Source: an uncultured Clostridia bacterium
Lineage (GTDB): Bacteria; Bacillota; Clostridia; Christensenellales; Borkfalkiaceae
Direction of reading: 5' to 3'
NCBI GenBank assembly: GCA_944376295.1
Contig: CALWCE010000004.1
Location: 119,407 to 183,406 of the forward strand
DNA: 64,000 nt
The position numbers and the translations under genes were made by a program. Under the pieces are notes generated by a model. It had not been told where the DNA came from. It saw only the letters and a program-made list of their open reading frames with translations, and searched no databases. Positions 12,301-45,125 of the stretch are shown here, piece by piece (the stretch's first letter is position 1; each line of letters opens with the position of its first letter).

Positions 12301-12685
12301 ACCGCCTCCTTGAAAAATCTCCTTCCCGCCGCCCGACAAAACTCCTTCCGTCTCACATTCGCTCGGCACCGCCCTCTCAACCTCACCCCCAAAAAATACT
12401 TCGTCTTTTTTTGGAGACCCCGAGGAGGGAGGCAAGGGAATTATCGTTTCCCTTGTTTCTAAAATAAACTTCCGCGAGCAAAACCACGCTTTTGCGCTGC
12501 GGGACTCAATTTGCGCCATACTTGGCGCTTACTGTTCTTAGAATGACAAACGCGTTCGCGGGCGATAGCGCCCGTTAAAACCAACAACCTTCACCCCTCG
12601 CCGCGAAGATTTCCCGAAGGGAAAGATTTGCGGCGAATTCTCCTCACGACTTTTTTGTGCTTGCACAAAAAAGTGTGAACTTTCT
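12301..12685. other. Non-coding interval between rel and the MBL-fold gene
   Basis: 385 bases without a supported gene. It contains structured repeat copy A (12472-12680), an extra hairpin (12599-12635, CGCCGC arms) inserted in that copy, and a piece GAGGAGGGAGGCAAGGGAAT (from 12422) resembling the palindromic GGGAG repeats at 31.2 and 56.5 kb. Confidence 0.7.
12472..12680 (-). repeat. Structured 3'-abutting repeat, copy A
   Basis: Read in the direction of rel, the element starts GTTCAC five bases after the stop. H1 is a hairpin with arms TTCAC...TTTTTTGTG and CACAAAAAAGT-C-GTGAG. After the extra hairpin come GAGGGGTGAAG, the phrase GTCATTCTAAGAACAGTAAG, then H3 (GCGCC/GGCGC, 12513-12528), CAAATTGAGTC, and H4 (CCGC outer arm with inner GCAAAA/TTTTGC, 12472-12503). 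Sixty bases (12472-12531) are identical to copy B. The extra hairpin is absent from copies B and C. Confidence 0.8.
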
Positions 12686-14821
12686 TTAGCTTGCTCTTCT
12701 CACATCAATAATTTTCTGATGCCCCATGATCTTCTTGATGAGCACTTCGACGTCCTGACGGTTGGTGAGCGAGACGGTGACGTCGACGATGGCGCTGCCG
12801 TTCTTATCGTAGCGGCCGTTGATGGACGTGATCTCAAGGTGCATCTCGGCGACGCTTGCACTGATCGCGCCGATAGCGGCGCCCTGATCGTCCGCGACGA
12901 CCACGATGGCTGCCTTGAAACGCACGCCGCCCTCTTCGGCGACCCACGCCGCCGCCTGCAGACGGGCGGGATCGGCGCCCTTCAGATTGGGACAGTCCTT
13001 GCGGTGTACGACGACGCCGCGCCCCCGCGTCACGAAGCCGACGATCTCGTCGCCGGGCACGGGCGAGCAGCAGCCCGCGAAGGAGACGAGAAGCCCCGTC
13101 TGCCCGTTGATGGTGACGGTGCCTTTTGCAAGCCTGCCGTGATAGGTTGGCTCGCTCGCCGTCACGAGCGGCTGCGGCACTTCCTTGCGGAAGAAGTCGA
13201 TGAGCTTATACAGGACCTGGTTGATGGTGACCGCCCCATAGCCGATGGAAGCGAACATTTCGTCCTGCGAGTTGAAGGCGAGCTTTTCGGAGACCTTTTT
13301 GAAGCTCTCGTCGGTGAGAATGTCGGAAAGCGCATAGCCCTTCCTCTTGGCGGCGTCTTCGAGCATGTCGCGCCCCAAGCGGATGTTCTCGTCCTTCATC
13401 TCGCGCTTGTAGAAGGACTTTATTTTCGCCTTCGCCGAAGTAGATTTGATGAATTTGAGCCAGTCGCGCGAAGGTCCCTTGGAGTTGGGCGAGGTGATGA
13501 TCTCGACGACGTCGCCGAGCTCCAGCGTCGAGTTGAGGGGCACGATCTTGCCGTTGACTTTGGCGCCCGTGCAGTGGTTGCCCACTTCCGAGTGGATGGC
13601 ATAGGCGAAGTCAACGGGCGTCGCGTCGTTGGGAAGGGAGATGACCTTGCCCTGCGGCGTGAAGACGAGGAGTTCGGAGCTGAACAGCGACCCCTTGACG
13701 GTATCCATGAACTCTTTGGAATCTTTGAGGCCGCCCTGAAGTTCCATCATCTCGCGGATCCACGAGATGCGCTGATCGAGCGTCGTCTCCTCCGTCGTCT
13801 GTTCCTTATACTTCCAGTGCGCCGCGATACCGTACTCCGCCGTGCGGTGCATCTCCTCGGTGCGGATCTGGATCTCGAAGGGCTGACCGAAGTTGGTGAC
13901 GACCGTCGTGTGCAGCGACTGATACAAATTGGGCTTGGGCGTTGCGATGTAGTCCTTGATGCGCCCCGGCACGGGCTTCCACTCCTTGTGGATCTTGCCG
14001 AACACTTCGTAGCACTCGTCCACCGTGCCGACGATGACGCGCACTGCCGTCAGGTCGTAGATCTGATCGAGCGTCTTGTTCTTCGTCGTCATCTTCTTGT
14101 AGATGGAATAGAAGTGCTTGGGACGGCCGAACACCTCGCCGTGGATGTTGCATTCGACGAGGATCTTCTTGATCTCTTCGACGACGTAATCGACAAAGCG
14201 GTTGCGCTCTTCGAGTTTCTGATGGATGTTCTCGACGAGGTATTCGAACGCCTCGGGGTCGAGATATTTGAGGCAGAGGTCTTCGAGCTCGCACTTGACC
14301 TGCGAAATACCCAGCCTGCCCGCGATGGGGGTGTAGATATCCAGCGTCTCGCGCGCCATGCGCTGCTGCCGCTCCTTGGAGAGGAAATTCAAAGAGCGCA
14401 TGTTGTGCAGGCGGTCGGCAAGCTTGATGATGATGACGCGGATGTCCTTCGCCATGGCGATGAAGAGCTTGCGGAAGTTTTCCGCCTCTTCCTCTTCCTG
14501 CGATTTGAAGACGATCTTATCGAGCTTGGTGACGCCCGCGACGAGGGATAAGACTTCCTCGCCGAATTCGCGGCGGATATCCTCTTCGGTGACGGGCGTA
14601 TCTTCGATGACGTCGTGCAAAAGCGCCGCCGCGATGGTCGCGGGATCGAGCCCGAGATCGACCAGGATCTCCGCCACGGCGCAGGGGTGGATGAAATAGG
14701 GCTCGCCCGAGGCGCGCTTCTGGTTGGCGTGCGCCGCCTTGGCGTAGTCGTAGGCATGGAGCAGCATGTTGCGCTCCTCCCCCGTGTAGTATTCGTAGAT
14801 CTTCATCAGGATGGCTTCCAT
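12686..14821 (-). CDS. rel: Bifunctional (p)ppGpp synthetase/hydrolase
   Basis: Stringent-response enzyme of 711 residues, usual long RelA/SpoT length. An HD hydrolase domain (about 25-170) shows YFIHPCAVAEI and LLHDVIEDTP, so hydrolysis should be active. The synthetase domain (about 230-345) shows GRPKHFYSIYKKM and DLTAVRVIVG. TGS (about 395-455, VFTPQGKVISLPNDATP), a Cys/His segment (GCCSPVPGDEI, HRKDCPN) and a C-terminal ACT domain (about 640-711) follow. ATG 14821 is preceded by AAAGGAGGGGGGAACG. recJ lies 27 bases upstream. Structured repeat copy A begins right after its stop. Confidence 0.96.
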   Translation of the reverse strand: MEAILMKIYEYYTGEERNMLLHAYDYAKAAHANQKRASGEPYFIHPCAVAEILVDLGLDPATIAAALLHDVIEDTPVTEEDIRREFGEEVLSLVAGVTKLDKIVFKSQEEEEAENFRKLFIAMAKDIRVIIIKLADRLHNMRSLNFLSKERQQRMARETLDIYTPIAGRLGISQVKCELEDLCLKYLDPEAFEYLVENIHQKLEERNRFVDYVVEEIKKILVECNIHGEVFGRPKHFYSIYKKMTTKNKTLDQIYDLTAVRVIVGTVDECYEVFGKIHKEWKPVPGRIKDYIATPKPNLYQSLHTTVVTNFGQPFEIQIRTEEMHRTAEYGIAAHWKYKEQTTEETTLDQRISWIREMMELQGGLKDSKEFMDTVKGSLFSSELLVFTPQGKVISLPNDATPVDFAYAIHSEVGNHCTGAKVNGKIVPLNSTLELGDVVEIITSPNSKGPSRDWLKFIKSTSAKAKIKSFYKREMKDENIRLGRDMLEDAAKRKGYALSDILTDESFKKVSEKLAFNSQDEMFASIGYGAVTINQVLYKLIDFFRKEVPQPLVTASEPTYHGRLAKGTVTINGQTGLLVSFAGCCSPVPGDEIVGFVTRGRGVVVHRKDCPNLKGADPARLQAAAWVAEEGGVRFKAAIVVVADDQGAAIGAISASVAEMHLEITSINGRYDKNGSAIVDVTVSLTNRQDVEVLIKKIMGHQKIIDVRRAS

Positions 14822-14848
14822 CGTTCCCCCCTCCTTTGCAAATTTACC

Positions 14849-30528: not shown

Positions 30529-31043
30529 TGAACCGCTATACCATCTCTGCACTCGTAGACAACAAGAGCGGTGTTCTGACCCGCGTGGCGGCGCTGTTTG
30601 CCCGCAGGGGGTACAACATCGAATCGCTCTCCGTCTGCACGACGGAAGACCCCGCCCTCTCGCGCATGACCATCGTGTTGTGCGGCGACGACTACATCCT
30701 CGGTCAGATGATGAAGCAGATGGACAAGCTCATCGACGTGAGGAAGATCAACAAGGTGGAAGAGGACGCCGTCTCGCGCGAACTGCTCCTTTGCAAGGTC
30801 AAGACGGACGCGACGACGCGCAGCCAGGTGCTCGAGATCAGCCAGATCTTCCGCGCGAAGATCGTCGACGTTTCGACGGAGGCGACCATCATGGAACTGA
30901 CGGGCAAGCCTTCCAAACTCGACGGCTTCATCAACATGCTCATGCCCTACGGCATTTTGGAGCTCGCGCGCACGGGCGTCACCTCCATCGGGAGGGGCGC
31001 TTCCTGCCTGCGCGACGTGCCCGATTATAAGGAACAGATATAG
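30528..31043 (+). CDS. ilvN: Acetolactate synthase, small regulatory subunit
   Basis: Regulatory subunit of 171 residues, mediating valine feedback. I start at ATG 30528 (MNRYTISALVDNKSGVLTRV), overlapping the ilvB stop, not at the earlier in-frame codon. An ACT domain (about 1-75) with FARRGYNIESLSV is followed by the C-terminal IlvN-type domain (SREILLCKVK-like segment and LTGKPSKLDGFI). Structured repeat copy B begins one base after its stop. Confidence 0.94.
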   Translation: MNRYTISALVDNKSGVLTRVAALFARRGYNIESLSVCTTEDPALSRMTIVLCGDDYILGQMMKQMDKLIDVRKINKVEEDAVSRELLLCKVKTDATTRSQVLEISQIFRAKIVDVSTEATIMELTGKPSKLDGFINMLMPYGILELARTGVTSIGRGASCLRDVPDYKEQI

Positions 31044-31044
31044 A

Positions 31045-31208
31045 GTTCACAAATTTATTTTTGCCGAGCAAAAATAAATTTCGTGAGGGGTGAAGCATCA
31101 ACATCTCCTCACCCCGTCGCCCACGACCGTATCTGTCCTCAAAGTCACTAAGCGCCAAGTATGGCGCAAATTGAGTCCCGCAGCGCAAAAGCGTGGTTTT
31201 GCTCGCGG
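31045..31208 (+). repeat. Structured 3'-abutting repeat, copy B
   Basis: Begins GTTCAC one base after the ilvN stop. H1 arms are AAATTTATTTTTGC and GCAAAAATAAATTT around CGA, again with a single extra C before GTGAG. Then GTGAGGGGTGAAG, a diverged middle, H3 (GCGCC/GGCGC, 31152-31167), CAAATTGAGTC and H4 (inner GCAAAA/TTTTGC, to 31208). The last 60 bases are identical to copy A. Confidence 0.8.
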
Positions 31209-31231
31209 CATGATTTGGGAAGCGGTAATTC

Positions 31232-31284
31232 CCTTGGCTCCTTCTTTGAGGGAGCTGTCGAGCGCAGCGAGACTGAGGGAGTCA
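31232..31284 (+). repeat. Palindromic GGCTCC/GGGAGT intergenic repeat, copy 1
   Basis: TTGGCTCCTTCTTTGAGGGA then GCTGTC, a small GC hairpin, GACTGAGGGAGT. The same frame of motifs recurs at 56523-56589 with a different, but still paired, centre. It follows copy B directly. Confidence 0.65.
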
Positions 31285-31407
31285 CCTTATTATCTCTCCC
31301 GCAATGCATAACGTTCACGATCTTTTTTTGACGGGCAAAAATAAAGCGGCGTGCGCGTCCCACGCGGGGCGCGCACCCTCACAATGTGAATCTTCGGAGG
31401 CATTTTT

Positions 31408-33075: not shown

Positions 33076-33108
33076 ATAAGGCGCCGCCCAAAGGGCGGCA
33101 GAAAGGAA

Positions 33109-33146
33109 CGCGCGGGGCGCGGGGCATTCGCCCCGCGCCCCGCGCG
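33109..33146. other. Long GC hairpin between ilvD and the LysR gene
   Basis: A 17-bp perfect inverted repeat with arms of C and G only (33109-33125 and 33130-33146) and loop ATTC. It stands between two convergent genes. There is no clear T-run on either side, so it may end transcription only weakly, or serve RNA 3'-end stability. Confidence 0.7.
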
Positions 33147-33165
33147 TCAGCATAAAAACCGCACT

Positions 33166-33987
33166 TTAAAAAAACCGCTCCTCTTCGCCCGCACGGCAGA
33201 CGCGGTAACTTTTGAGCTTCATGCGCGAAAATCCGACGGGAGCGACCTCCGTCAGAAGCCCCTCTTCCAACTCCTTTTTGACGATGCCGCGCGGCAGAAA
33301 GGCATAGCCGAGCCCCGCCGCCAGAAAATCTTTGACTTTGTTGGAATTATCCACCTCGAAGGGGAACACCTGCCCCGCGGGGAAGAGTTCGCGAAGATAG
33401 GAGCCGATCTCTTCGAGGGAAAAGTTGCACATGGCGCAGGGGAGCTTCCTCAGCTCTCCTTTCGTCACGCCGCGGGGGAAGGCGTTTTTATCCCGCCGCA
33501 CCAGAAGGACGAGCTCGTCTTCAAAGAAAGGCGTTGAGGAATACCCCGCCCGCTTCACCGCCTGATAGCCGTACACGGCGTCGAGCGAACCGCTCCACAG
33601 CTGTTCCAGAAGCTCCGCCGAATGCCCGAGCGTCACGCGGTAATGCCCGCCGGCGGCGATGCCCCCGAAGATGCGCTCTTTGAGCATCCCCTCATAGACG
33701 GCGTTAGTCGCGCCCAGCCGCTGCTGCCGCTCGCCGCCCCGCACGGCGCTTTTCAAGGCGTCCTCAAGCTCGACGATGCGCCGCGCGTACTCCGCGAACA
33801 GCTTTCCCTCCTCGGTGAGGGAAAAATTGCGCGTATCCCGCCGCAAAAGCTTCACCCCCGCCTCGCGTTCAAGCTCCAAAATGCGGTTGGTCACCGTGGA
33901 CTGCGCAACGAAGAGCTGTTCCGCCGCGCGCGTAAAGTTGCAAAAGCGCACCACCAGCAAATAGGTGCGTAAATTCTCGGTATCCAT
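33166..33987 (-). CDS. LysR-family transcriptional regulator
   Basis: Regulator of 273 residues, started at ATG 33987 (MDTENLRTYLLVVRFCNF), where LysR proteins normally begin. The winged helix-turn-helix (about 1-60) shows FTRAAEQLFVAQSTVTNRI; the effector-binding domain follows (about 85-270). It is divergent from leuC, and both promoters share an 18-bp palindrome, so it probably controls leuCDB and its own gene. The effector is unknown; an intermediate of leucine synthesis is a fair guess by analogy with other LysR regulators of leu genes. No good Shine-Dalgarno site is seen. Confidence 0.9.
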   Translation of the reverse strand: MDTENLRTYLLVVRFCNFTRAAEQLFVAQSTVTNRILELEREAGVKLLRRDTRNFSLTEEGKLFAEYARRIVELEDALKSAVRGGERQQRLGATNAVYEGMLKERIFGGIAAGGHYRVTLGHSAELLEQLWSGSLDAVYGYQAVKRAGYSSTPFFEDELVLLVRRDKNAFPRGVTKGELRKLPCAMCNFSLEEIGSYLRELFPAGQVFPFEVDNSNKVKDFLAAGLGYAFLPRGIVKKELEEGLLTEVAPVGFSRMKLKSYRVCRAGEEERFF

Positions 33988-34036
33988 AAATGCGAATAAT
34001 CGATTGCTCCGATTTAATAATTCGTTTTTTGTATGA

Positions 34037-34074
34037 TTGACGAGAGTATAGCACATGTGCTATAATTTTGTCAA
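34037..34074. promoter_or_regulatory. Interleaved divergent promoters of leuC and the LysR gene over one palindrome
   Basis: Plus strand: TTGACG (34037-34042), 18 bases, TATAAT (34061-34066), reading into leuC. Minus strand: TTGACA (34069-34074), 18 bases, TATACT (34045-34050), reading into the LysR gene. The perfect palindrome TATAGCACATGTGCTATA (34047-34064) fills the shared centre and touches both -10 boxes. Confidence 0.8.
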
Positions 34075-34097
34075 ACACAAACAAGGAGATAATCGCT

Positions 34098-35351
34098 ATG
34101 GGAATGACGATGACGCAGAAGATCCTCGCCGCGCACGCAGGGCTTCCTTGCGTGGAAGCGGGTCAGCTCATCGAAGCAGAGCTCGACCTTGCGCTTGCCA
34201 ACGACATCACCGCCCCCGTCGCCATCAACGAGGTGGAAAAGGCGGGCGGATGCGTGAAGTGCCGCGACAAAGTGGCGCTCGTGATGGATCACTTCACCCC
34301 GAATAAGGACATCAAGGCGGCCTGCCAGGTGAAAAAGACGCGCGAATTCGCGAAGAAGGAGCAGGTGACGCACTTTTACGACGTGGGCAAAATGGGCATC
34401 GAACACGCCCTTCTGCCCGAACAGGGACTCGTGGGCGCGGGCGACTGCGTGATCGGCGCAGACAGCCACACCTGCACCTACGGCGCGCTCGGCGCCTTCT
34501 CGACGGGCGTGGGCAGCACCGACCTTGCCGCCGCCATGATGACGAACAAGGCGTGGTTCAAAGTCCCCGCGGCGCTCCGTTTCGAGCTCAAAGGCAGCCT
34601 CCCCCCTTACATCACGGGAAAAGACCTCATCCTCCACATCATCGGCACGATCGGCGTGGACGGCGCGCTCTACAAGAGCATGGAATTTACGGGCGAGGGC
34701 GTTTCCTCCCTTTCGATGGACGATCGCTTCACCGTCTGCAACATGGCGATCGAGGCGGGCGCGAAGAACGGCATCTTCCCCGTGGACGACAAGACGCTCG
34801 CCTACATGGAAGGGCGCTTCAGGCGCACCCCCAAGATCTTCGAGGCGGACGCGGACGCGGAATACGAAAAGACGTATACGATCGACCTTTCCGCGCTGAA
34901 GCCCACCGTCGCCTTCCCCCATCTCCCCGAAAACACGCGCACGGAGTGGGAGGAGCTTCCCGTCCAGCAGGCGGTCATCGGCTCCTGCACGAACGGGCGC
35001 ATCTCCGATCTGCGCCAGGCAGCCGAAATTTTACGCGGCAGGAAGGTCGCGGACGGCGTGCGCTGCATCGTCATCCCCGCGACGCAGGAAATTTATCTTC
35101 AGGCCCTCGAAGAAGGGCTCGTTGCCGACATGGTGAGAGCGGGCGCCGTCGTCTCCACCCCCACCTGCGGGCCGTGCCTCGGCGGGCACATGGGCATCCT
35201 CGCCGACGGCGAGCGCTGCGTTTCCACCACCAACCGCAACTTTGTCGGCCGCATGGGGCATATTTCGAGCGAAATTTATCTCGCGTCGCCCTACGTCGCC
35301 GCGGCGAGCGCCGTTTTAGGCCGCCTCGCGACCCCTCAGGAGGTAAAATAA
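34098..35351 (+). CDS. leuC: 3-isopropylmalate dehydratase large subunit
   Basis: Aconitase-family subunit of 417 residues for leucine synthesis. I start at ATG 34098 ([15 protein letters not shown]) with AAGGAGAT nine bases upstream, not at the earlier in-frame codon. The 4Fe-4S cysteines are in [25 protein letters not shown] and [12 protein letters not shown]. leuD follows after two bases. The shorter bacterial/archaeal form of LeuC, paired with a 159-residue LeuD. Confidence 0.95.
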
Positions 35352-35352
35352 C

Positions 35353-35832
35353 ATGAAAGTGCAAGGCACCGTGCATAAATTCGGCAGCAACGTCGATACC
35401 GACGTCATCATCCCCGCGCGCTATCTCAACACCTCTTCCCCCGAAGAGCTCGCCCTCCACTGCATGGAGGACATCGACAAGGACTTCGTGAAGAGAGTGC
35501 AGAAGGGCGATATCATCGTCGCCGAAGACAACTTCGGCTGCGGCTCCTCGCGCGAGCACGCGCCCATCGCCATCAAAGCGAGCGGCGTCTCCCTCGTCAT
35601 CGCCAACACCTTCGCGCGCATCTTCTACCGCAATTCCATCAACATCGGGCTGCCCATCCTCGAATGCCCCGAAGCCGTCAAGGCGATCAAAGAAGGCGAC
35701 AGCGTCTCCTGCGATCTTGCCCTCGGCGTCATCCGCGACGAGACGACGGGCGAGCAGTTCAAGGCGCAGCCCTTCCCGCCCTTCATCCAACGCATCATCG
35801 ACGCGGGCGGGCTCATCAATTCGCTCAAATAA
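35353..35832 (+). CDS. leuD: 3-isopropylmalate dehydratase small subunit
   Basis: Partner of LeuC, 159 residues. The swivelling-domain motif [17 protein letters not shown] and the start [19 protein letters not shown] identify it. ATG 35353 lies two bases after leuC, with CAGGAGGTAAAATAAC overlapping the leuC stop, so expression is coupled. Confidence 0.96.
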
Positions 35833-35903
35833 CGCCCGGCTGAATGCCGCGCACAACGGGCGCCGCTCCCTTGCGGGAGGGCGTCCCGGACTTTGATCCA
35901 TCC

Positions 35904-36464
35904 ATGAAAAAGTTTTCCGCCGCCTTTTATCTCATCCTGCTCGGTCTCACCGTCCTCGTGCTGGGCTGCCTCGGCCTCTGGCTTTGGCTCGGCAACGAAG
36001 TTTTCCTCTACGTCATGATCGCGCTCTTCGCGGTCTATCTCTTCCATCTCATCTACAGCATGGTCCACGCCGACCGGAGGGAAAAGCGCGAACAGACGAC
36101 GGAGGAACTTCTCCGCGCAGGACTCAAAGGCGGAGACTGCGTCGTGTACCTTACCTACTTCGGCGGCGAACGGCACATCAGAAAGCCCTCCCCGCACAAG
36201 GCGGAATACCTCGTCGAGCTCTATCCCCCTTCGGTGGACGGCGAATGCTTGAAAAAGCATCTCTGGTTCGGGCTTTCGGACAGAGAGGAGAAGCTTCTCT
36301 CGGGCGCAAAACGGTACGAGGCGAAGATCGCCTATCCCGCACTCGCCCTCATCGAAGGGAAGACGGTCTATCTTGCCGCAGGCTTTTATGAAGCCGCCAA
36401 AGAACAGGCAGCTTTTTCGCAGTTGCTCAACAAAAATACCATCGTTTTATACGGAGAAAATTGA
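35904..36464 (+). CDS. Hypothetical two-helix membrane protein within the leu operon
   Basis: Protein of 186 residues from ATG 35904 ([20 protein letters not shown]). Two membrane helices (about 5-27 and 31-52, [20 protein letters not shown]) are followed by a soluble domain of about 130 residues with alternating charged segments ([20 protein letters not shown]). I do not recognise a family. It sits between leuD and leuB, two bases before the leuB ATG, so it is co-transcribed with leucine genes although no link in function is evident. The ribosome-binding site is weak. Confidence 0.65.
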
Positions 36465-36465
36465 C

Positions 36466-37554
36466 ATGAAAAAACACATCGCAGTGCTCGCGGGCGACGG
36501 CATCGGCCCCGAGATCACGGACGGCGCCGTTTGCGTCCTTCAGGCGGTTGCCAAAAAATACGGCCATGAATTCACCTTCGAACCCCTCCTCATGGGCTGC
36601 TGCGCCATCGAAGCGTGCGGCGAACCGCTGCCCGCGCACACGGTGGAACGCTGCCTCGCTTCGGACAGCGTGCTCTTAGGCGCCGTCGGCGGCATGGTGG
36701 GCGACCCCCGCTGGGATAACCTGCCGGGCGATAAGCGCCCCGAAGCGGGGCTCCTCGGCATCCGCAAGGCGATGGGGCTTTACTCCAACATCCGCCCCGC
36801 GCGGCTGTGGGCGCCCCTTGCGGACGCTTCCCCTTTAAAGCGAGAGCTCGTAAAAGACGGCATCGAGATCGTCGTCGTCCGCGAGCTCACGGGCGGCATC
36901 TACTTCGGCAAGCGCGGGAGATACGACGACGAGAACATGGGCGAGACCGCCTGGGACACCGAGACGTACTCCGTCCGCGAGATCGAGCGCATCGCCCGCA
37001 TCGCCTGCGAGCTTGCGAGAAAGCGCAAAAAGCACGTCATCTCCGTCGATAAGGCGAACGTGCTCGAAAGCTCGCGCCTGTGGCGGCGCACCGTGCACGC
37101 CTTTGCCGAACAAAATTACCCCGACGTCAAAGTCGAAGATATGCTCGTCGACAACGCGGCGATGCAGATCGTCAAAAACCCCGCGCAGTTCGACGTGCTT
37201 CTAACTTCCAACATGTTCGGCGACATCCTCGCCGACGAAGCGGCGCAGGTGACGGGCAGCATCGGCATGCTCGCCTCCTCCTCTCTGGGCGACGGCACGC
37301 GCGGGCTGTACGAGCCCATCCACGGCTCGGCGCCCGACATCGCGGGGAAAGACGTCGCCAACCCCATCGCGACCATCCTCTCCGCCGCCATGATGCTGCG
37401 CGACTCCTTCTCGCTCACCGAAGAATGCGCGGCGGTCGAAAACGCCGTCCTTGAGGTACTCAACGAGGGCTGGCGCACGCCCGACATCATGAGCGAAGGC
37501 ATGAGAAAAGTGGGCTGCCGCGAAATGACCCGCCTCATCGCGGAACGCATATGA
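36466..37554 (+). CDS. leuB: 3-isopropylmalate dehydrogenase
   Basis: Oxidises 3-isopropylmalate in leucine synthesis; 362 residues from ATG 36466 ([20 protein letters not shown]) with ACGGAG upstream; an earlier in-frame start would overlap the membrane-protein gene. [27 protein letters not shown] and the NAD loop [18 protein letters not shown] are present. The overlap ATGA couples it to yggS. Confidence 0.96.
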
Positions 37555-38216
37555 TCCGAGAAAACGTGACCGCCCTCCTCAAAGAGCTGGAGGGCGGCAA
37601 TTGCTGTCATGAAAAGGTGACGCTCGTCGCTGCGACCAAGACGCGCACCCCCGCCGAGATCAACGAAGCGATCGCAGCGGGCATCACCGACATCGGCGAG
37701 AACAAGGTGCAGGAATTCACCACCAAATTCGAAGAAGTGCACGGCGCGCGCCGCCACTTCATCGGGCATCTGCAGCTCAACAAGGTCAAGTACCTCATCG
37801 GCCGCACCGACCTTATCGAGTCCGTCGACCGCGACGAGCTCGCCTCGGAACTTTCTAAGCGCTCCGTGCGCGCGGGCATCGTCACCGACATCCTCATCGA
37901 AGTCAACATCGGCTGCGAAGAATCGAAGAGCGGCTATCCCCTCGAAGAAGCGTTCTCCGCCTATGAACGCCTCTCCCGCACGGAAGGGCTGCGCGTCAAG
38001 GGGTTCATGGCGATGCTCCCTCTTGCGGGCGATGACGCATACCTTGGCGGCCTTGTCGACAAGATGCGCGCCCTCTACGACCGCGCGCGGGCGCAGGATG
38101 AAAACATCGAACACCTTTCGATGGGCATGAGCGGGGACTGGCGGCTGTGCCTTGCCCACGGCTCCAATATGATCCGCCTCGGCACCGCCATCTTCGGCTC
38201 CCGCACCTGCCGGTGA
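37551..38216 (+). CDS. yggS: YggS-family pyridoxal phosphate homeostasis protein
   Basis: PLP-binding protein of 221 residues (PLPBP), fold of alanine racemase N-domain. The PLP lysine is in [33 protein letters not shown] and LSMGMSGDW, then [10 protein letters not shown], are family stretches. It has no catalytic role known, but affects PLP and amino-acid balance, which fits its place after leuB. Its last codons (ACC TGC CGG TGA) are part of the repeat described at 38204-38390. Confidence 0.94.
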
Positions 38217-38390
38217 GGCGGCGGGAATTTCCGCTGCGTGCAGGAAAACTCCCGCAAAGATGTTCTCGCCGACAAAGGGGGGCTTTAAGACCCCCTCGCC
38301 GGTGGGGCAGCACCTGCCGGTGGGGCAGCACCTGCCGGTGAGGCAGTAGGAATTTACGCTGCTCTTGCGAAAACTCCCGCACATCCGTTC
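38204..38390 (+). repeat. Imperfect tandem duplication including the 3' end of yggS
   Basis: The stretch CACCTGCCGGTGAGGCGGCG...AAAACTCCCGCA (from about 38209, 60-odd bases) recurs from about 38332 as CACCTGCCGGTGAGGCAGTA...AAAACTCCCGCA with scattered changes. Between them is an 18-bp unit GCCGGTGGGGCAGCACCT in two exact copies (38298-38315, 38316-38333) and a third degenerate copy. The remainder to 38460 holds only the ribosome-binding site of the next gene (AGAAGGAG). Confidence 0.8.
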
Positions 38391-38460
38391 TCTCGGGCAA
38401 ATAGCTCCGAGATGATCGCCCCATACCCCCCGAAACCATAACCAACAAGAAGGAGAATTT

Positions 38461-39366
38461 ATGCCATCCGCCATCACCCATCAGCTCGTCGCCGAAGAGA
38501 CCGAAAAGCTCCTCCCCGAAGGGCTGCAGCATATCATCGAGCGCGCCCCCGACGAATATTTCCTCGGCTGTCAGGGGCCCGATATGTTCTTTTTCTACCG
38601 CATCGGCAGCCGCAGCGAATACAACCTCGGGAAATTTTTGCACCGGAACCGCCCGTACGATGTGTTCCGCCTCTTCTGCCGCATCCTCTCGGGCGAACAG
38701 AACGCCCGCTTCCCCGTCTATTCGGACGAGGACCGCACCCGCGCCTTTGCCTATATCCTCGGCTATATCGCCCACTACGCGACGGACAGCACCTTCCATC
38801 CCTTCGTCTACAATTATATGGACCGGGAAAAGAGCGAAAAGCGGGTGCACCAGCTCATCGAAAACGATTGGGACGTCCACTTCCTGCGCAAGTTCCGCGG
38901 GCGGGAGGCGGAAAAGTTCCGCTGTGCGTTTTCGCCCAAAAAGATCGCAAAGAACGCCGCCGTTGCCCGCCTCTACGCCTGCCTTGCCGAAGAACTCGGC
39001 CGCGAGGAAGTGAAAAAGAGCAAATTCAACGCGGGGCTCAAGAATTTCTGGCGATATCTCACCTTCTTCCACGGGAAGTGCTATTCCTCGCAGCGCGCAT
39101 GGGAAAAGCTCGAACGCTTTTTCCGCGCGAAGCCCTTCCTCTCCTGCCTCTATCCGCGCAAGCACCCCGACCCCGAATATCTCGCCTCAGACGGCTTTTC
39201 GCGTCTTTCGGAAGGCAAGGGCGGGAATGCCGACGAGCTCTTTGCCCGCGCCCGCGACGAGAGCGCCCGCCTTTCTGTGCTCTTCTGCGAATGCGTCCGC
39301 AGCGGAACGCCTCTCCCGCGTGAAGACTTCTCTTTGAGCTTCCTCACCGCACGACCCGTGGAGTGA
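38461..39366 (+). CDS. Zinc-dependent phospholipase C-like protein
   Basis: Protein of 301 residues with the fold of bacterial zinc phospholipase C. Histidine and aspartate ligands are visible in SAITHQLVAEE near the start, CQGPDMFFF, and GYIAHYATDSTFHPFVYNYM (about 100-120). There is no signal peptide, unlike secreted phospholipases; many Clostridia have such cytosolic family members with no known function. It starts at ATG 38461 behind AAGGAGAATTT. It is followed by a strong terminator shared with the convergent acyltransferase-like gene. Confidence 0.85.
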   Translation: MPSAITHQLVAEETEKLLPEGLQHIIERAPDEYFLGCQGPDMFFFYRIGSRSEYNLGKFLHRNRPYDVFRLFCRILSGEQNARFPVYSDEDRTRAFAYILGYIAHYATDSTFHPFVYNYMDREKSEKRVHQLIENDWDVHFLRKFRGREAEKFRCAFSPKKIAKNAAVARLYACLAEELGREEVKKSKFNAGLKNFWRYLTFFHGKCYSSQRAWEKLERFFRAKPFLSCLYPRKHPDPEYLASDGFSRLSEGKGGNADELFARARDESARLSVLFCECVRSGTPLPREDFSLSFLTARPVE

Positions 39367-39421
39367 ACGCCATCCTGTTCGGCTGCACTGCCAACGAGCA
39401 CATTCCCGCTTCTCTCCACAA

Positions 39422-39462
39422 CGGATGCGGCGGCTGCGCATTCTGCGCAGCCGCCGCATCCG
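39422..39462. terminator. Terminator between convergent genes
   Basis: A perfect 19-bp stem (39422-39440 with 39444-39462, centre TTC), followed by CTTATTTC on the plus strand. It ends the phospholipase-like gene. Confidence 0.8.
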
Positions 39463-39468
39463 CTTATT

Positions 39469-40302
39469 TCATCCGTTCAGAACGCCCTCTGCCCAGCCTA
39501 TTTTGCCGCCCGCAAGCAGATGCCGTTTCACCGCCCGCTGCAAAGAGGTCTCCTCGGGCAGCTCCTCTACAGGCGCCGTGACTGCCGAGGGGAAGATCCA
39601 ATCGCGGAAGGCGGGGCTGTCCTCCTCCCAAAACACGACGGAAAACCGCTCCGAAAAGCGCCGCACACGGCTCGTCTCGGGCAAAATTTCCCGCAGCGCG
39701 GGAGAGAGCATCCACGACTCGCACACATATCCCGCATCCGCAAAGGCGGGGAAGTACTTGCAAAAGAACGCCCTTGCCTCGGCGAGCGAGGCGTCCACCG
39801 CCCCGTCCGAAAGATCGGCATCCGCGGGGATGTGCAAAAAGGTGCGCCTCTTATCTCCGCCCGACGGCTTGCCGCCGAACGCCGCCCCTTCCGTCATCTC
39901 GTATTCGAGCGCGCCGAGGCGGAACTCTTTGAGCGCGAGCTGACGGGGGAACCACCAGCCCCACGTCCATCCGGCGCGCCCGCTGCGGGCAAACGCTTCT
40001 TTCGAAAAGCGCGCCATGAACGCCATCGTCGCAAGGAAGATATCGCGCCCGATGCCCCGCTTTTCGTATTCGTGAAGGGCAAGGAGCGCCTCTTGGCTCT
40101 GCGCCGCGAACAGCTTCATGCCGTCCTCGTCCGCGCCGAGCGCCTCCCTCAGAGCAGAATATCCCTCCTCATAGGGCGCGGTGCGCCAACATTCGAGCGG
40201 CAGCCCCGAAAAAAGCGCCTCGTTTTCGCGCAGCACCTCGTCCGCCCGCGCCGAGACCGCCGCCGAAACGCCGATCTCTTCCCAAAACCTCTTGACTGTC
40301 AT
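39469..40302 (-). CDS. Acyltransferase-like protein of unknown function
   Basis: Protein of 277 residues from ATG 40302 (MTVKRFWEEIGVSAAV), preceded by AGGAGGGGCTGT. The all-helical first half (about 1-120) and the second half with FRLGALEYEMTEG, FLHIPADADLSDGAVDASL and ARAFFCKYFP resemble proteins annotated as acyltransferase-domain (GNAT-like) proteins in Clostridia. I cannot point to a catalytic residue. It is monocistronic by its surroundings. Confidence 0.7.
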   Translation of the reverse strand: MTVKRFWEEIGVSAAVSARADEVLRENEALFSGLPLECWRTAPYEEGYSALREALGADEDGMKLFAAQSQEALLALHEYEKRGIGRDIFLATMAFMARFSKEAFARSGRAGWTWGWWFPRQLALKEFRLGALEYEMTEGAAFGGKPSGGDKRRTFLHIPADADLSDGAVDASLAEARAFFCKYFPAFADAGYVCESWMLSPALREILPETSRVRRFSERFSVVFWEEDSPAFRDWIFPSAVTAPVEELPEETSLQRAVKRHLLAGGKIGWAEGVLNG

Positions 40303-40357
40303 ACAGCCCCTCCTGACTTTTTTATCCGATATCAAAGCGGAATTTGCTTCCCCCGGA

Positions 40358-40386
40358 TTGACAAGGACCGTTCAAAGTGCTATCAT
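40358..40386 (+). promoter_or_regulatory. Promoter of the zinc-ribbon membrane protein
   Basis: TTGACA (40358-40363), 17 bases, TATCAT (40381-40386). Confidence 0.7.
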
Positions 40387-40419
40387 TTTGTTAAGCACAT
40401 GAAAAGGAGAAAATGAAAG

Positions 40420-41868
40420 ATGAATTGTCCTTCCTGCGGCACGGAAAACCCGGACGGCTCCCTCTTCTGCAAGCAATGCGGCAGACGGCTGAGCGAGACC
40501 GTCACTTGTCCCGTATGCGGCGAACTTTCTCCCGCCGACGGCAACTTCTGCATCCGCTGCGGCGCCCGCTTAACGCCCCTGCCCGCGACGGACGAAACGG
40601 ACGATCGCCTACAGGAAGCACGCACGGCAGTCTTAACGGCAGCACCTGCCGCCCCTGAGCCCGCGCCCGCCGAAACCGAACAAGCGCCGACGGAAGCCGA
40701 GGAGGCGCCCGCAAAGGAAGCGGAGCCGCAGGGCTGGCGGCAGATCCTGATGACGGTCGGCGACTCTCTCGCCATCTTCACCGCGCTTGCCTCCGTCATC
40801 TTCCTCTTCTGCCTGGGATGCGACCGCTATGTCAGTCCCGGGACGCCTTCCGTGGACGGCACGAACATCTACTATTATTTCGGCGAAGTCTACCGCACCC
40901 TCTTTGTCTTTCCGGCGACGGAAACGTCGGCGTATCCGATCCCCGTTTATTATGCGCAGGCAGTCGCAGGCACGCTGATCTCCGCCGGCATGGTCGTCTG
41001 CGTCGGCGTGCTCTTCATCCTCACCCTCCTGCGCTTTTTGCGCAGCTTCACGCAAAAGAGCAAGTCCGTCACGGCGATGGCAGCCAAGACGTACTTTTTC
41101 TATCTCGCCTTCGCGCTGCTGTTTTTGGCGCTGCACGCGGTACGCGCCCGCTCTCTTTCCTCCGACGGAACGCTCCTCTATCGCGTCTCGCTCAATGATG
41201 TGACGATCGCGGGGCTTGCCGTCGGCGCGGTCGGCATCGCTGCCGCCGCCGCTCTCAACGCCGCCGCCCGCATGAAAAAGCCCGCGGCGGGTCGCATCCT
41301 GCAGCTGAGTTTTTCGGGCGTCTGCCTGCTTCTCGTCGCGGCGGTCTTCGCCCTGCTCTCGGGCGCGATCGTTCAGATCACGCTGTCGGACGGGCAGGAT
41401 ACCTACACCGCATGGTACGGATTTCTCGGCTTGTACGAGGCAGCCGCCATGAGCGGCGGCACCACATACGCCCCCGCCGTGAGCGACGCCGTATATGCCG
41501 TCTATCACGCCGATCAGATGACGGCAGCCGTCTGTTCGCTGCTCGGTTTCGTCTTCCTTATCGTGCTCTTCCTGCTCCTTGCGGTGCTCGCCTCGTCGCT
41601 CGTGAAAAGCATCGCAGAGCCCGCCGAAAAGCCCAAGACGCTGCGCTATATGATCCCCGCCATCCTCTTTACGGTGGGGCTGACCATCTGCTCGGCGCTC
41701 GCCGCAAGCGCACTTGCGGCACTCTCCGTCGGGGACGGAGCATCCGGGCTCACCGCCTCCACGCAGTTCACGCCGCCCATCATCGCCGCCGTGCTCTCGG
41801 CGCTCACGCTCATCCTGCTCATCGTGTACGGAGCGCTCACGGGCGGCAAAGATGAAAATAAGGAATAA
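40420..41868 (+). CDS. Membrane protein with two N-terminal zinc ribbons
   Basis: Protein of 482 residues. The first 52 residues hold two zinc ribbons (MNCPSCGTENPDGSLFCKQC and CPVCGELSPADGNFCIRC). A linker rich in A, E and P follows (about 60-105), then a membrane part with about eight helices (first at about 115-132, FTALASVIFLFCLGC). Such zinc-ribbon membrane proteins are frequent in gut Clostridia with no known function. A second ATG in another frame at 40413 competes for the same AAGGAGAA site but gives only a short product. A terminator follows. Confidence 0.8.
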   Translation: MNCPSCGTENPDGSLFCKQCGRRLSETVTCPVCGELSPADGNFCIRCGARLTPLPATDETDDRLQEARTAVLTAAPAAPEPAPAETEQAPTEAEEAPAKEAEPQGWRQILMTVGDSLAIFTALASVIFLFCLGCDRYVSPGTPSVDGTNIYYYFGEVYRTLFVFPATETSAYPIPVYYAQAVAGTLISAGMVVCVGVLFILTLLRFLRSFTQKSKSVTAMAAKTYFFYLAFALLFLALHAVRARSLSSDGTLLYRVSLNDVTIAGLAVGAVGIAAAAALNAAARMKKPAAGRILQLSFSGVCLLLVAAVFALLSGAIVQITLSDGQDTYTAWYGFLGLYEAAAMSGGTTYAPAVSDAVYAVYHADQMTAAVCSLLGFVFLIVLFLLLAVLASSLVKSIAEPAEKPKTLRYMIPAILFTVGLTICSALAASALAALSVGDGASGLTASTQFTPPIIAAVLSALTLILLIVYGALTGGKDENKE

Positions 41869-41886
41869 CAACGCCCCAAATGGCGC

Positions 41887-41930
41887 AAAAAGCGGCAGCC
41901 GCTTGAAACGGCTGTCGCTTTTATTTTTGT
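41887..41930. terminator. Bidirectional terminator of the zinc-ribbon gene and queH
   Basis: AAAAGCGGCAGCCG pairs with CGGCTGTCGCTTTT with one mismatch; TATTTTTG follows on the plus strand and AAAA/TTTT arms serve the minus strand. The stop codon of queH lies inside it. Confidence 0.8.
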
Positions 41931-42532
41931 TTCTGCTTTGCGCGTTCGGTTTTGGAAAAGGCGCAGCCGCAGTAGTCCTGTCGGTAGAGCCCGTATTCCT
42001 CGGAGAGCCGCACCGAATGCAGATACCCGCCCCGCTTCTTGAAATCGGAGGGAAGATACTTGACGCCGGTTTCCTCCGCGACGGCAAAGCCGATCGTGTT
42101 GATGAGTTTGGCGTTTTTGAGGGGGGAGACGGTGAGCGTGGTCGCAAAATAGTCAAAGCCGCGCGCCTTTGCCTCCCGCGCCGTCCGTTCAAGGCGCAGG
42201 CGGAAGCACACCGCGCACCGCGCGCCGCCCTCCTTCTCTTCTTCCAGCCCGCGCACCGCCGTAAGGTAGTCCTCGGGCGCATAGTCGCAGTCCAGAAAGT
42301 CCGCGAGCCCCGTCTCCCTCAGAAAGCGGAGCTGCTCGCGCTTTCTCTTTTCGTATTCCTCGGCGCAGTCGAGGTTGGGGTTGTAGTAAAAGACGGTGAC
42401 CCCGATCTGCGGAGAGAGCTCGCTCAGACAGTGCGAAGAGCAGGGCGCGCAGCAGCTGTGCAAAAGGAGGCGCTTCTCCCGCGCCCCCCTGAGCTCTTCC
42501 TGCATCAGTTTGTCGTAATTGACGGCGTTCAT
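41921..42532 (-). CDS. queH: Epoxyqueuosine reductase QueH
   Basis: Iron-sulfur reductase of 203 residues carrying out the final step of queuosine synthesis. The cysteine pairs are LHSCCAPCSSH (near 30), RCAVCFRLRLERTA (near 105) and YCGCAF near the end, as in the QueH family that replaces QueG in many anaerobes. Start ATG 42532 (MNAVNYDKLMQEELRG) has a weak GAGGGCTG site. It completes the tgt-queA pair of this window. Two hairpins lie in its upstream region. Confidence 0.93.
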   Translation of the reverse strand: MNAVNYDKLMQEELRGAREKRLLLHSCCAPCSSHCLSELSPQIGVTVFYYNPNLDCAEEYEKRKREQLRFLRETGLADFLDCDYAPEDYLTAVRGLEEEKEGGARCAVCFRLRLERTAREAKARGFDYFATTLTVSPLKNAKLINTIGFAVAEETGVKYLPSDFKKRGGYLHSVRLSEEYGLYRQDYCGCAFSKTERAKQKQK

Positions 42533-42567
42533 ATCACAGCCCTCGTCGGCATTCGCCTCAGTCTTCA

Positions 42568-42648
42568 GCGCCTGTTGACAAGTTAAAGGCGCTGTTCTCT
42601 GCGCGATGTCTCCTCTTCCCACAAAACTCGCTTACGCGATTTTTGCGG
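42568..42648 (-). other. Two hairpins upstream of queH
   Basis: GCGCCT/AGGCGC (42568-42592) and an imperfect TCCC-CAAAA/TTTTG-GGGA hairpin (42615-42648). They could belong to a queH leader or end the pdxT transcript. I see no preQ1-riboswitch consensus. Confidence 0.4.
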
Positions 42649-42672
42649 GAGCCCTCTTTCGCGGCACGCTTT

Positions 42673-43245
42673 TCATGCCTCGCCTTTGATCATTTTCAAG
42701 AAATACTCATGCACTCTGAGATCGTCGGTCAGTTCGGGATGGAAGGCGAGCGCCAGCATCTTGCCCTGCCGCACGGCGACCGTCTTGCCCCCGACGACGG
42801 AGAGGATGTCGACGCCCTCGCCCGCCTCCGCCACATAGGGCGCGCGGATGAAGACGGCGGGATATTCGCCGACGCCCTTCACTTCCGTATTCGCCGTGAA
42901 GGAGCCCAGCTGCCGCCCGTAAGCGTTGCGGCGCACGGTGACGTTGAGCGTCCGGAGATGAGGGGCTTCGCCGCCCTCGATCTTATTTGCAAGCAAAATG
43001 AGCCCCGCGCACGTCGCGAGCACGGGCATCCCGCCCTCGATGGCGCTTTTAAGCGGCGCAAACAGCCCCTCTTCGCGCAGGAGCTTGCCCTGTACGGTGG
43101 ACTCCCCGCCGGGGAGCACCACGCCGTCGAACTGTTCCGAAAAATGTGCAAGACGGCGGATCTCTACGACCTCCGCGCCCAGCTTTTGGAGCGCGTGCTC
43201 GTGTTCGATGAAGGCGCCCTGAAGCGCAAAAACACCAATTCTCAT
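42673..43245 (-). CDS. pdxT: Pyridoxal 5'-phosphate synthase glutaminase subunit
   Basis: Class I glutaminase of 190 residues supplying ammonia to PdxS. From ATG 43245 (MRIGVFALQGAFIEH). The triad is visible: ATCAGLILLA (Cys), and AFHPEL (His, Glu); PGGESTVQGKLL forms the oxyanion region. It lacks a clear Shine-Dalgarno site and is separated from pdxS by 201 bases that hold a folded element, unlike the usual tight pdxST pair. Confidence 0.95.
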   Translation of the reverse strand: MRIGVFALQGAFIEHEHALQKLGAEVVEIRRLAHFSEQFDGVVLPGGESTVQGKLLREEGLFAPLKSAIEGGMPVLATCAGLILLANKIEGGEAPHLRTLNVTVRRNAYGRQLGSFTANTEVKGVGEYPAVFIRAPYVAEAGEGVDILSVVGGKTVAVRQGKMLALAFHPELTDDLRVHEYFLKMIKGEA

Positions 43246-43279
43246 AAAGTAGTAACTGTTTTTATGGAACGTGAACAGC

Positions 43280-43433
43280 ATTCATCGGCTGAATACTTTG
43301 TCGCCTTTGCGCACGGCGGCGGTCACTTACGTCTCAGTAAGCTCCCTTGCCGTTTACGCAGGCTCCTCGTCTCAGCCGCGACTGCTGTCCAGACGATAAC
43401 CCATATCCTATTTACCGTTTTCGGCCGATGAAT
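43280..43433 (-). ncRNA. Candidate structured RNA between pdxS and pdxT
   Basis: Read on the minus strand, the element is closed by ATTCATCGGCCGAA (43420-43433) with TTCAGCCGATGAAT (43280-43293), a 14-bp helix with one mismatch. Inside are CGTCT/AGACG, CTTAC-TGAGAC-GTAAG, GGCT...AGCC and GCC...GGC pairings, the first two sharing the word TGAGAC(G). No reading frame of note. A small transposon with inverted ends is the alternative. Confidence 0.55.
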
Positions 43434-43446
43434 CCGGCGCGAGGAC

Positions 43447-44322
43447 TTACTTGCCGCGCTCTGCCATCAAAAGCGCGATCTCCTGCTCGTTGATGCCCAC
43501 CATCGCCTCGCCGAGGTCTTCGGAAAGCTCTGCAAGGATCGCAGGGTCCTCGTAGTTGGTGACGGCCTGCACGATGGCGCGCGCACGCTTTGCGGGGTTC
43601 CCGCTTTTGAAGATGCCGCTGCCGACGAACACGCCCTCGGCGCCCAGCTGCATCATGAGGGCTGCATCCGCGGGGGTCGCCACGCCGCCCGCCGCGAAGT
43701 TGACGACGGGGAGCTTGCCGTTCTCGTGAACGTACTTCACAAGGTCGTAAGGCACCTGCAGCTGCTTGGCTTCCTCATAGAGCTCGTCTTCGGACATGGA
43801 GACGACCTTTCTTATTTCACTCATCATCATGCGCATATGGCGCACCGCCTGCACGACGTCGCCCGTACCGGGCTCGCCCTTGGTGCGGATCATGGAAGCG
43901 CCCTCTGCAATGCGGCGAAGCGCCTCGCCGAGGTCTCTCGCCCCGCAGACGAAGGGAACGGAGAACTTGGTCTTATCGATGTGATACTTGTCGTCGGCGG
44001 GAGAGAGCACTTCGCTCTCGTCGATGTAGTCGATCTCGATGGCCTGCAAAATTTGCGCCTCGACGAAGTGACCGATGCGGCACTTTGCCATGACGGGGAT
44101 GGAGACAGCTTCCTGGATGCCCTTGATCATCTTGGGGTCGGACATACGGGAGACGCCGCCCGCCGCGCGGATATCGGCGGGGATGCGCTCGAGCGCCATG
44201 ACGGCGCACGCGCCCGCTTCCTCTGCGATCTTCGCCTGTTCGGGCGTGGTGACGTCCATGATGACGCCGCCCTTGAGCATCTGGGCAAGGCCCTTGTTGA
44301 GTTCGAAACGTTCGTTGTTCAT
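43447..44322 (-). CDS. pdxS: Pyridoxal 5'-phosphate synthase lyase subunit
   Basis: TIM-barrel synthase of 291 residues that builds PLP from ribose 5-phosphate, glyceraldehyde 3-phosphate and ammonia. [40 protein letters not shown] and [20 protein letters not shown] are family stretches. ATG 44322 follows AAGGAGGATATG. It has its own promoter (44410-44438) and a leader hairpin. Confidence 0.97.
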
Positions 44323-44409
44323 ATCATATCCTCCTTGGGAGTGGAAATTCTCAAAAATGCACTTTTCGCCGCGAAGATCTTGCGCAGCAAAAAGATTTGC
44401 GCGAAACTA

Positions 44410-44438
44410 ATTATATCACCTTCCGGGAAAACGGTCAA
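44410..44438 (-). promoter_or_regulatory. pdxS promoter
   Basis: Minus strand TTGACC (44433-44438), 17 bases, TATAAT (44410-44415). The leader of about 80 nt contains an imperfect hairpin with AAATCTT/AAGAT arms (about 44366-44405). Confidence 0.75.
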
Positions 44439-45125
44439 CAAATTTTATCGTTCGCCTTGTCTGCGTCAATAAATTTGAGCGCTCCGCTCCGGGAGAGGGC
44501 TCGCACGCCGCAGAGAAGCCCCGGAAAAGCCGGCGATCTGTCGTCGCCCCTCCCCGGCGCCGTGAAAGCGTCCGCAAGCAAAAAGCGCCGCCCCGAAGGA
44601 CAGCGCCGAACGCGCAGGAAAACCCGCCGTGTTGATCATTCTTTCTTCCCTTGCTCCCAAGATCTCTTCCGCGGGCAAAACCGCGCTTTTGCGCTTCTCC
44701 CCGAAAAACAAGAAAGCGCTTTCTCGCCCCCCGAAGAGGGAGGTAAGGGAGCGGGTGAGATCAACAACCCCTCCGTCAGGCTCGTTCCTCGCCTGCCACC
44801 GTCTCGGCAGCGCAAGGGAAACGCCGCCTCGGTCACGGTTTTTGCCCACAATGGCAAAAACCTCAGTTCGCCGCGCGCACGCCACACCGTGGCGATGCGT
44901 ATCATGCGCGGCTCACCCCCTTACACAGGAGAGGCTAAAATGAGGATTGCTAAAACAATTTCCGCGAGGAGGGTTTCCCTCCGCTGCGGGACTCAATTTG
45001 TACCCGCAGGGCACTTATTGTTCTTAGAATGACAACCAAGCTCGCGGGCGAAAACGCAATTTAGATGCCCTCTCTTCACCCCTCACGGAATTTGTTTTGC
45101 GTAGCAAAAGAAATTCGTGAACTTC
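44439..45125. other. Long non-coding interval between pdxS and rng, rich in repeat remnants
   Basis: About 690 bases without a supported gene. It holds structured repeat copy C (44962-45122), a detached fourth piece resembling helix H4 (about 44670-44698, GGCAAAACCGCGCTTTTGC), and GAGGGAGGTAAGGGAG (near 44736) like the GGGAG repeats. Reading frames here overlap the repeats and have no start sites worth the name. Confidence 0.65.
44962..45122 (-). repeat. Structured 3'-abutting repeat, copy C
   Basis: In the direction of rng it begins GTTCAC three bases after the stop. H1 arms are GAATTTCTTTTGC and GCAAAACAAATTC, with the extra C before GTGAG. Then GTGAGGGGTGAAG, GTCATTCTAAGAACAATAAG, H3 as GTGCCC/GGGTAC (45000-45014), CAAATTGAGTC and H4 with inner GGAGGG/CCCTCC (44962-44990). 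H3 and the inner helix of H4 differ from copies A and B but still pair. Confidence 0.8.

Follow-up and report, generated by a model that had tools for sequence, protein, structure and literature searches.

Three structured repeats behind stop codons

The window analyzed here is a stretch of 64,000 nucleotides (nt) from an uncultured Clostridia bacterium of the Borkfalkiaceae (assembly GCA_944376295.1, contig CALWCE010000004.1, positions 119,407 to 183,406), and it carries three copies of a hairpin-rich repeat. Their opening motif, GTTCAC, starts at 12680 (-), 31045 (+) and 45122 (-), that is 5, 1 and 3 nt behind the stop codons of rel, ilvN and rng, respectively, with every copy in the sense of its gene (Table 1). 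Pfam assigns the three upstream genes to RelA_SpoT, acetolactate synthase small subunit and RNase E/G, and also backs ilvD; the remaining gene names used below, among them rpsR and the clp gene at other sites of the family, were assigned by eye. Where checked with Pfam, the hosts of copies are housekeeping genes. As argued below, these copies probably belong to a genus-specific, mosaic interspersed hairpin repeat, whose members are rewritten in place by exchange with one another.

A preliminary description of the window, made from its letters, had placed GTTCAC at these distances in gene direction, and the coordinates are confirmed. The H1 hairpin with a bulged C before GTGAG and the stem variants of H3 and H4 also match it on inspection. 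The single order of parts that it gave for all three copies holds for copies 2 and 3 only. In copy 1, a hairpin interrupts the order behind H1: H1-GTGAG-GAGAA is followed by this additional hairpin and then by GGGTGAAG, and an unbroken GTGAGGGGTGAAG is found only in copies 2 and 3. Folded as sense RNA, copies 1, 2 and 3 have z-scores of -4.1, -4.5 and -3.4.

Table 1. Genes and repeat modules at the three copies, in window coordinates
Feature	Position	Strand	Remarks
rel	12686-14821	-	upstream of copy 1
ilvN	30528-31043	+	upstream of copy 2
ilvD	31408-33075		downstream of copy 2; Pfam
rng	45126-46634	-	upstream of copy 3
Copy 1, entire, tail included	12460..12680	-	5 nt after rel stop
Copy 1, H1	12643..12680	-	GTTCAC..bulged C..GTGAG, type ACTTTTTTGTG
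Copy 1, additional 41-nt hairpin	12597..12637	-	TTCGCCGC..GCGGCGAG; an H1 type elsewhere in the family
Copy 1, optional hairpin H2	12560..12573	-	GGGCG/CGCCC
Copy 1, H3	12513..12528	-	GCGCC/GGCGC, then AAATTG
Copy 1, H4	12472..12502	-	outer CCGC/GCGG, internal loop AGC/TC, inner GCAAAA/TTTTGC
Copy 2, entire, tail included	31045..31220	+	between ilvN and ilvD, 1 nt after ilvN stop
Copy 2, H1	31045..31087	+	AAATTTATTTTTGC type
Copy 2, H3	31152..31167	+	GCGCC/GGCGC
Copy 2, H4	31178..31208	+	
Copy 3, entire, tail included	44950..45122	-	3 nt after rng stop
Copy 3, H1	45082..45122	-	GAATTTCTTTTGC type, C-C mismatch
Copy 3, H3	45000..45014	-	GTGCCC/GGGTAC, one G-U pair
Copy 3, H4	44962..44989	-	inner GGAGGG/CCCTCC

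A family found in one genus

The linker GTGAGGGGTGAAG occurs exactly four times in the 2.03-Mb genome to which the window belongs (its own genome, G000; G and L numbers are our handles for genomes and loci), against none for its backwards control, and blastn with copy 2 returns 42 matches there. A covariance-model search of this and related genomes, as proposed in the preliminary description, revealed many further copies. The model, built from 14 own-genome copies, gives 65 own-genome matches at E<=1, counting fragments and reverse-strand shadows, and 45 at E<=0.01. At the latter threshold, 34 of 37 genomes of the same genus are matched and none of 24 genomes from other families of the order. 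Among 391 genomes of the class, three were matched, all from the own genus, which was represented by four genomes; both multi-genome searches used stricter filters at which weak matches are lost. Five Candidatus Gallimonas species are among the named records with an ilvN relative, and in one of them ilvN is 99% identical, which makes Candidatus Gallimonas most likely the genus in question.

An Rfam scan of the window returned four tRNAs alone, and a scan of six family loci at E<=1 gave three weak matches, every one under the gathering score. One exact core pattern had no match in viral contigs and thus gave no sign of phage carriage. The element is described in no title or abstract start found in the open-access literature, a scope outside which most subscription journals fall.

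The copies, about 165-215 bp long, consist of H1, sometimes H2, a small hairpin, H3, H4 and a T-rich tail, the tail being conserved together with the linkers GTGAGGGGTGAAG, GCCCGCG and TAAG..CAAATTG. In the 59 distinct H1 strings matching our search pattern, mostly well-paired stems of alternative types (ACTTTTTTGTG, GAATTTCTTTCG, GCATTTC, AAATTTA, TTTCGCG or TTTCGCCGC) display recurrent irregularities, namely a bulged C, a C-C mismatch, an A-C mismatch and a two-base C-T/T-C internal loop. H3, between TAA and AAATTG, has highly variable stems (61 distinct strings, chance ones included). In H4, both the outer stem (CCGC/GCGG, CTGC/GCAG, GAGCC/GGCTC, CTTC/GAAG or GCGC/GCGC) and the inner stem vary, and the asymmetric internal loop is AGC/TC in 60 of 103 distinct tails. 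Conservation stops about 12 nt past H4, within the T-rich tail, which marks the end of the element. By a rule for intrinsic terminators (a stem, then at least five T in eight within 0-2 nt), 56 of the 103 distinct tails qualify and 47 fail.

A sister architecture exists in the genus behind ilvN (L134, L136, L139, L141, L145, L147, L159) and at the L113 site (L200, L207). It keeps the position of H1 and mostly similar H3 and H4 hairpins around a longer and different middle, e.g., GAGAGACAACC..GGTTTTCTCTC.

Placement flush behind functional boundaries

Placement was assessed on 103 of 126 model hits from 40 sources, in sequence stretches selected for holding model or blast matches; the 23 weakest hits, all below 42.9 bits and for the most part fragments, shadows on the reverse strand or weak copies, were excluded from the placement, direct-repeat and H1 counts. 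For 46 of the 103 hits, the start lies between -18 and +7 nt of a stop on the same strand (-1 to +5 in 44 of them); another 21 directly follow another copy in the same orientation and 36 lie elsewhere. When tandem copies are set aside, 45 of 82 fall within -2 to +7 nt of a same-strand stop, versus a mean of 1.15 and a maximum of 5 in 300 trials of random intergenic placement. For stops on the same strand, flush placement is thus far more frequent than chance would give. The same stretches hold four further repeat motifs with 64 copies in all, and each has 0 or 1 copy within 30 nt of a stop. Behind the 46 stop copies, the next gene is on the same strand in 29 cases, on the opposite strand in 15 and absent in 2, compared with 240 same-strand and 72 opposite for all genes there.

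Other copies adjoin boundaries of different kinds. By eye, some are found right after the T-runs of intrinsic terminators (L110 8719, L095 8901, L091 1593, L120 3232) and some next to promoters or ribosome sites of divergent genes (L107 2560, L091 19271, L102 18286); one lies 8 nt downstream of tRNA-Leu (L107 3010). At L110 13438 and L093 12071, stops were seemingly missed by our simple gene caller. Finally, antisense copies at gene 3' ends are flanked by direct repeats at L110 17162-17329 (38 bp), L096 9852-10019 (18 bp exact) and L121 2253-2414 (28 bp), the first two being orthologous sites in two species (L096 is in G001). Terminal inverted repeats were not seen on inspection, the 5' end being GTTCAC and the 3' end the T-rich tail.

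The window also holds another family of interspersed repeats, CCTTGGCTCC..GAGGGAGC..GACTGAGGGAGTC, at 31225-31290 and 12370-12450. It often lies downstream of the hairpin element, is not flush with stops, and its GACTGAGGGAGT core occurs 26 times in the fetched stretches. Just upstream of ilvD, at 31311-31390, a degenerate H1-like stretch (GTTCACGATC..) may be what remains of a further copy. Short remnants of an older H1 5' arm also stand right before a complete element at L090 19038, L091 3567 and L107 2744, as if overwritten by a new one.

Hairpins are replaced at orthologous sites

Twenty-three gene ends of the own genome were queried, with orthologs for 22 in G001, which represents a closely related species, and 12 in G080. 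The element is at the same place in 21 of the 22 in G001 (by reading; L120 6798 is without) and in all 12 in G080 (by eye). At the L110 8959 site it stands behind the terminator following the stop, in both G000 and G001. The gene 3' ends at the shared G000/G001 sites are 83-98% identical; two elements are 96 and 99% identical (ilvN and the L126 site) and 19 are 44-85% identical. One element in G080 is nearly identical to its counterpart in G000, and the L113 site in G001 holds a related element of different architecture. The stop codon and spacer often differ as well. The rel alignment of G000 and G001 was poor at its 5' end and was left unused.

Replacement at these fixed sites affects single hairpins, the linkers and flanks remaining similar. 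At one such site, H1 and H3 are 62 and 21% identical, compared with 87% for the linker, 94% for H4 with its tail and 93% for downstream DNA. At rpsR, the middle with H3 is 52% identical, versus 95% for H1 and 99% for H4 with its flank. Behind ilvN of Candidatus Gallimonas gallistercoris, the element differs in H4 (59%) and in what precedes H3 (50%), and its H1 belongs to another type (81%); the linker is 87% and H3 100% identical. A 121-nt insert, identical at 118-120 of 121 positions, is found in elements behind three different genes in two genomes, where it stands beside three different H3 hairpins.

In the more distant species G027 and G035, several sites are empty, with the next gene or a terminator in place of the element, and in element-free species ilvN and ilvD are close together, as are rel and its neighbor. 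These empty sites bring up a non-autonomous mobile element akin to miniature inverted-repeat transposable elements (MITEs), repetitive extragenic palindromic (REP) sequences or YPAL, which would prefer the ends of genes and terminators, travel in the form of a single-stranded hairpin with the help of some enzyme and hit the same sites repeatedly. We regard this as possible but doubtful. It would account for the sites empty in G027 and/or G035 (rel, the clp gene at L110 2254, L115, rpsR, L123, L124 and L126) and for the ilvN site being empty in many species, and is consistent with mismatches and bulges that recur within freely varying stems. The copies directly behind terminator T-runs or the tRNA-Leu gene also speak for it, as do the two antisense loci with direct repeats of 38 and 28 bp, the former with its 18-bp exact repeat in the G001 ortholog. 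Yet no transposase with the same ends was found, direct repeats at stop copies never exceed 10 nt, and mosaics of single hairpins at fixed sites are not a product of whole-element insertion.

Two candidate sources of mobility were considered and rejected. First, three Y1_Tnp (Pfam) matches in the own genome appear, from their flanks read by eye, to be one IS200-type element; an origin from IS200 or a REP-associated tyrosine transposase (RAYT) was dropped, as these genes look like one ordinary IS200 whose flanks share no hairpin with the family. The Y1 transposase gene in the window (5781-6209, -), with a Y1_Tnp match, is shorter than the two other genome copies and apparently truncated. The Pfam model detected no cognate RAYT in the own genome, although a protein too diverged for this model could escape it. 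Second, spread by reverse transcriptase was set aside: the single RVT_1 match in the own genome showed no link to the family. This reverse transcriptase gene (L239 1198-2592, -; G000:C6) adjoins open reading frames resembling a relaxase and a recombinase by eye, and possibly belongs to a mobile island.

Paired changes without a strand signature

The set used for covariation comprised 45 distinct H3-H4 cores, all matching our pattern at one fixed length and filtered for inner H4 pairing of at least 4/6. In these cores, 99.2% of 720 cells are paired, and double changes fill 148 cells as against 43.8 in shuffles. The covariation score is 0.554, compared with 0.147 in shuffles and at most 0.113 in slid controls, and shuffling of arms lowers a value of 0.897 to at most 0.645. 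Together with the 45 own-genome matches, the double-change cells bear out the view of the preliminary description that this is a structured family with real paired changes rather than a set of decaying insertions. A consensus from RNAalifold on a MAFFT alignment was left unused, as it was judged to pair misaligned modules.

The same description took the paired changes to argue for selection on RNA structure, and this is not supported. One-sided (G-U) changes occupy 3 of 720 cells, versus 148 with double changes; intermediates of stepwise RNA evolution are therefore almost absent. On the gene-sense strand, distinct H3 and H4 stems hold 8 G-U against 4 A-C pairs (p 0.39), a test of low power with 12 informative cells, in which the 37 distinct H3 stems were retained from 61 strings after removal of non-hairpins, a filter that favors pairing. 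Intrinsic terminators of the same stretches, picked by a simple script, hold 29 against 15 (p 0.049), and the G-U share of H3 and H4 lies below theirs (8/337 vs 29/540, p 0.037). H1 has 3 G-U and 17 A-C, most of the latter being one recurring, non-independent mismatch in related stems. The sense strand is the more stable in 39 of 85 elements (p 0.14), again at low power; the set comprised 87 copies of at least 60 bits, or 85 once near-duplicates were removed. With one-sided cells nearly absent and no sense-strand signature, the stems appear to change as blocks. These results suggest that the stems are real and constrained and that the acting strand may be DNA or RNA. Since the strand tests have little power, a function at the RNA level is possible.

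Covariation of this kind could also be mutational. In quasi-palindrome correction, template switching inside hairpins makes the arms complementary without selection, and the almost perfectly Watson-Crick stems of H3 and H4, with few G-U or A-C pairs, are what it would produce. It would also erase the irregularities that persist here, such as the C-C mismatch of one H1 type, the C-T/T-C loop of another and the AGC/TC loop of H4, and it leaves aside the whole modules, loops included, that are common to different sites and species. We consider this explanation very unlikely.

According to a further alternative, the repeat is an RNA 3'-end element whose chain of hairpins protects mRNA against 3' exonucleases, serves as a processing site or, by way of H4 and the T-rich tail, ends transcription; selection would maintain the fold, and conversion would only provide the sequences. 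Its sense orientation 0-5 nt after stops, the occupation of 21 of 22 sites in both G000 and G001 in spite of sequence turnover and the strong folding of the window copies argue for such a role, as do the tails with terminator form, the H4 flagged by a terminator scan at rpsR, and the position of the rpsR element where G027 has an intrinsic terminator (by eye). But the G-U excess is not significant, in H1 the balance is reversed, sense stability favors neither strand and one-sided states are nearly lacking. The copies moreover split ilvN from ilvD and rel from its neighbor, which are close pairs in element-free species; 47 of 103 tails lack terminator form, the scan left H4 of copies 2 and 3 unflagged in window 30000-46000, and some copies lie at divergent promoters or ribosome sites or in antisense. 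On balance, this alternative strikes us as rather unlikely.

A mosaic repeat probably rewritten in place

The reading that we favor is that of a mosaic repeat rewritten in place. Each copy is a row of hairpins on conserved linkers that sits immediately after some functional boundary, in most cases a stop codon, and runs in the direction of the gene. Hairpins would be replaced as copies undergo ectopic gene conversion anchored in the linkers, and conversion would thereby maintain a common repertoire of hairpins. The constraint likely acts on folding in single-stranded DNA or RNA. As whole hairpins are replaced at orthologous sites, compensated stems arise for DNA hairpins just as for RNA. When transcribed as 3' untranslated region or intercistronic sequence, the hairpins might affect mRNA ends.

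Several points weigh against this reading. Conversion is deduced from mosaics in the sequence. Repeated re-insertion could give like patterns at some sites, because the stop codon and spacer often differ too. Simple insertion of new copies would predict target-site duplications, and at stop copies the longest word common to both flanks is at most 10 nt. No recombination enzyme was tied to the family among the candidates considered, the three Y1 transposases resembling one IS200 with other ends. Two of the five covariation measures are at shuffle level, namely pairs with double changes (10 vs 8.6; 70/500) and further pair types (21 vs 20.7; 271/500), as expected where few block types are reused. 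Lastly, the same genes are occupied in two or three species, which is more than neutral conversion needs and hints at function.

A further version is a 3'-end signal in which the fold is the working unit: selection would demand a specific chain of hairpins directly behind the stop while conversion among dozens of copies swaps whole hairpins at each site, so that inheritance would extend to shape and position but not to sequence. We consider this version improbable. If the placement is functional, the genus would amount to a natural experiment: at gene ends, position and shape stay constant and the sequence is reshuffled. The case also carries a more general lesson, as textbook compensatory changes across paralogous repeats can stem from swaps of whole hairpins rather than from stepwise selection on RNA. 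The signs that distinguish the two are missing one-sided intermediates, the lack of a strand signature and mosaics at orthologous sites.

Relation to known repeats

Modular or palindromic repeats are known from several bacteria. In Enterococcus faecalis, EFAR repeats are built of hairpin modules, lie close to stop codons and can function as terminators. Integron attC sites have GTTRRRY/RYYYAAC boxes in a cassette array with an integrase, and REP sequences have a conserved 5' tetranucleotide such as GTAG.

Close likenesses are also found in the systems below, which are compared on partial accounts in the sources cited. YPAL/RU-2 of Yersinia is a 168-bp element with internal inverted repeats, target duplications of 3-26 bp and targets beside dyad symmetry; it is not modular in the description compared (PMC2229807), and direct repeats flank our family at two antisense loci only. 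The bcr1-bcr18 families of the Bacillus cereus group are intergenic repeats, some with conserved secondary structure, often in untranslated regions or operon gaps, and the part of their description compared mentions neither flush placement behind stops nor module swapping (PMC3446304). REP sequences and the bacterial interspersed mosaic elements (BIMEs) that they form are extragenic imperfect palindromes in mosaic composites, and REPs can directly follow the rayt stop (PMC2817692). In contrast to BIME units, which alternate in orientation (PMC2817692), each of the 21 tandem copies of our family follows a copy oriented like itself, and whereas REPs have a cognate RAYT (PMC2817692), the Y1 transposases found in the own genome have unrelated ends.

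BOX and SPRITE of Streptococcus pneumoniae are modular, highly folded, non-coding interspersed repeats, typically <200 bp, and SPRITE is enriched near gene 3' ends (PMC3049150). They share with our family the modular, folded and interspersed character, in a different host group. Terminal inverted repeats and target duplications are features of both BOX and RUP (PMC3049150), whereas no target duplications were detected at the stop copies of our family. Flush placement behind stops and in-place swaps of single hairpins are traits of our family that are absent from the BOX and SPRITE description compared (PMC3049150). The family thus resembles a modular hairpin repeat of the BOX or BIME sort, but neither the cognate RAYT of REPs nor the target duplications at stop copies and terminal inverted repeats expected of MITEs were found.

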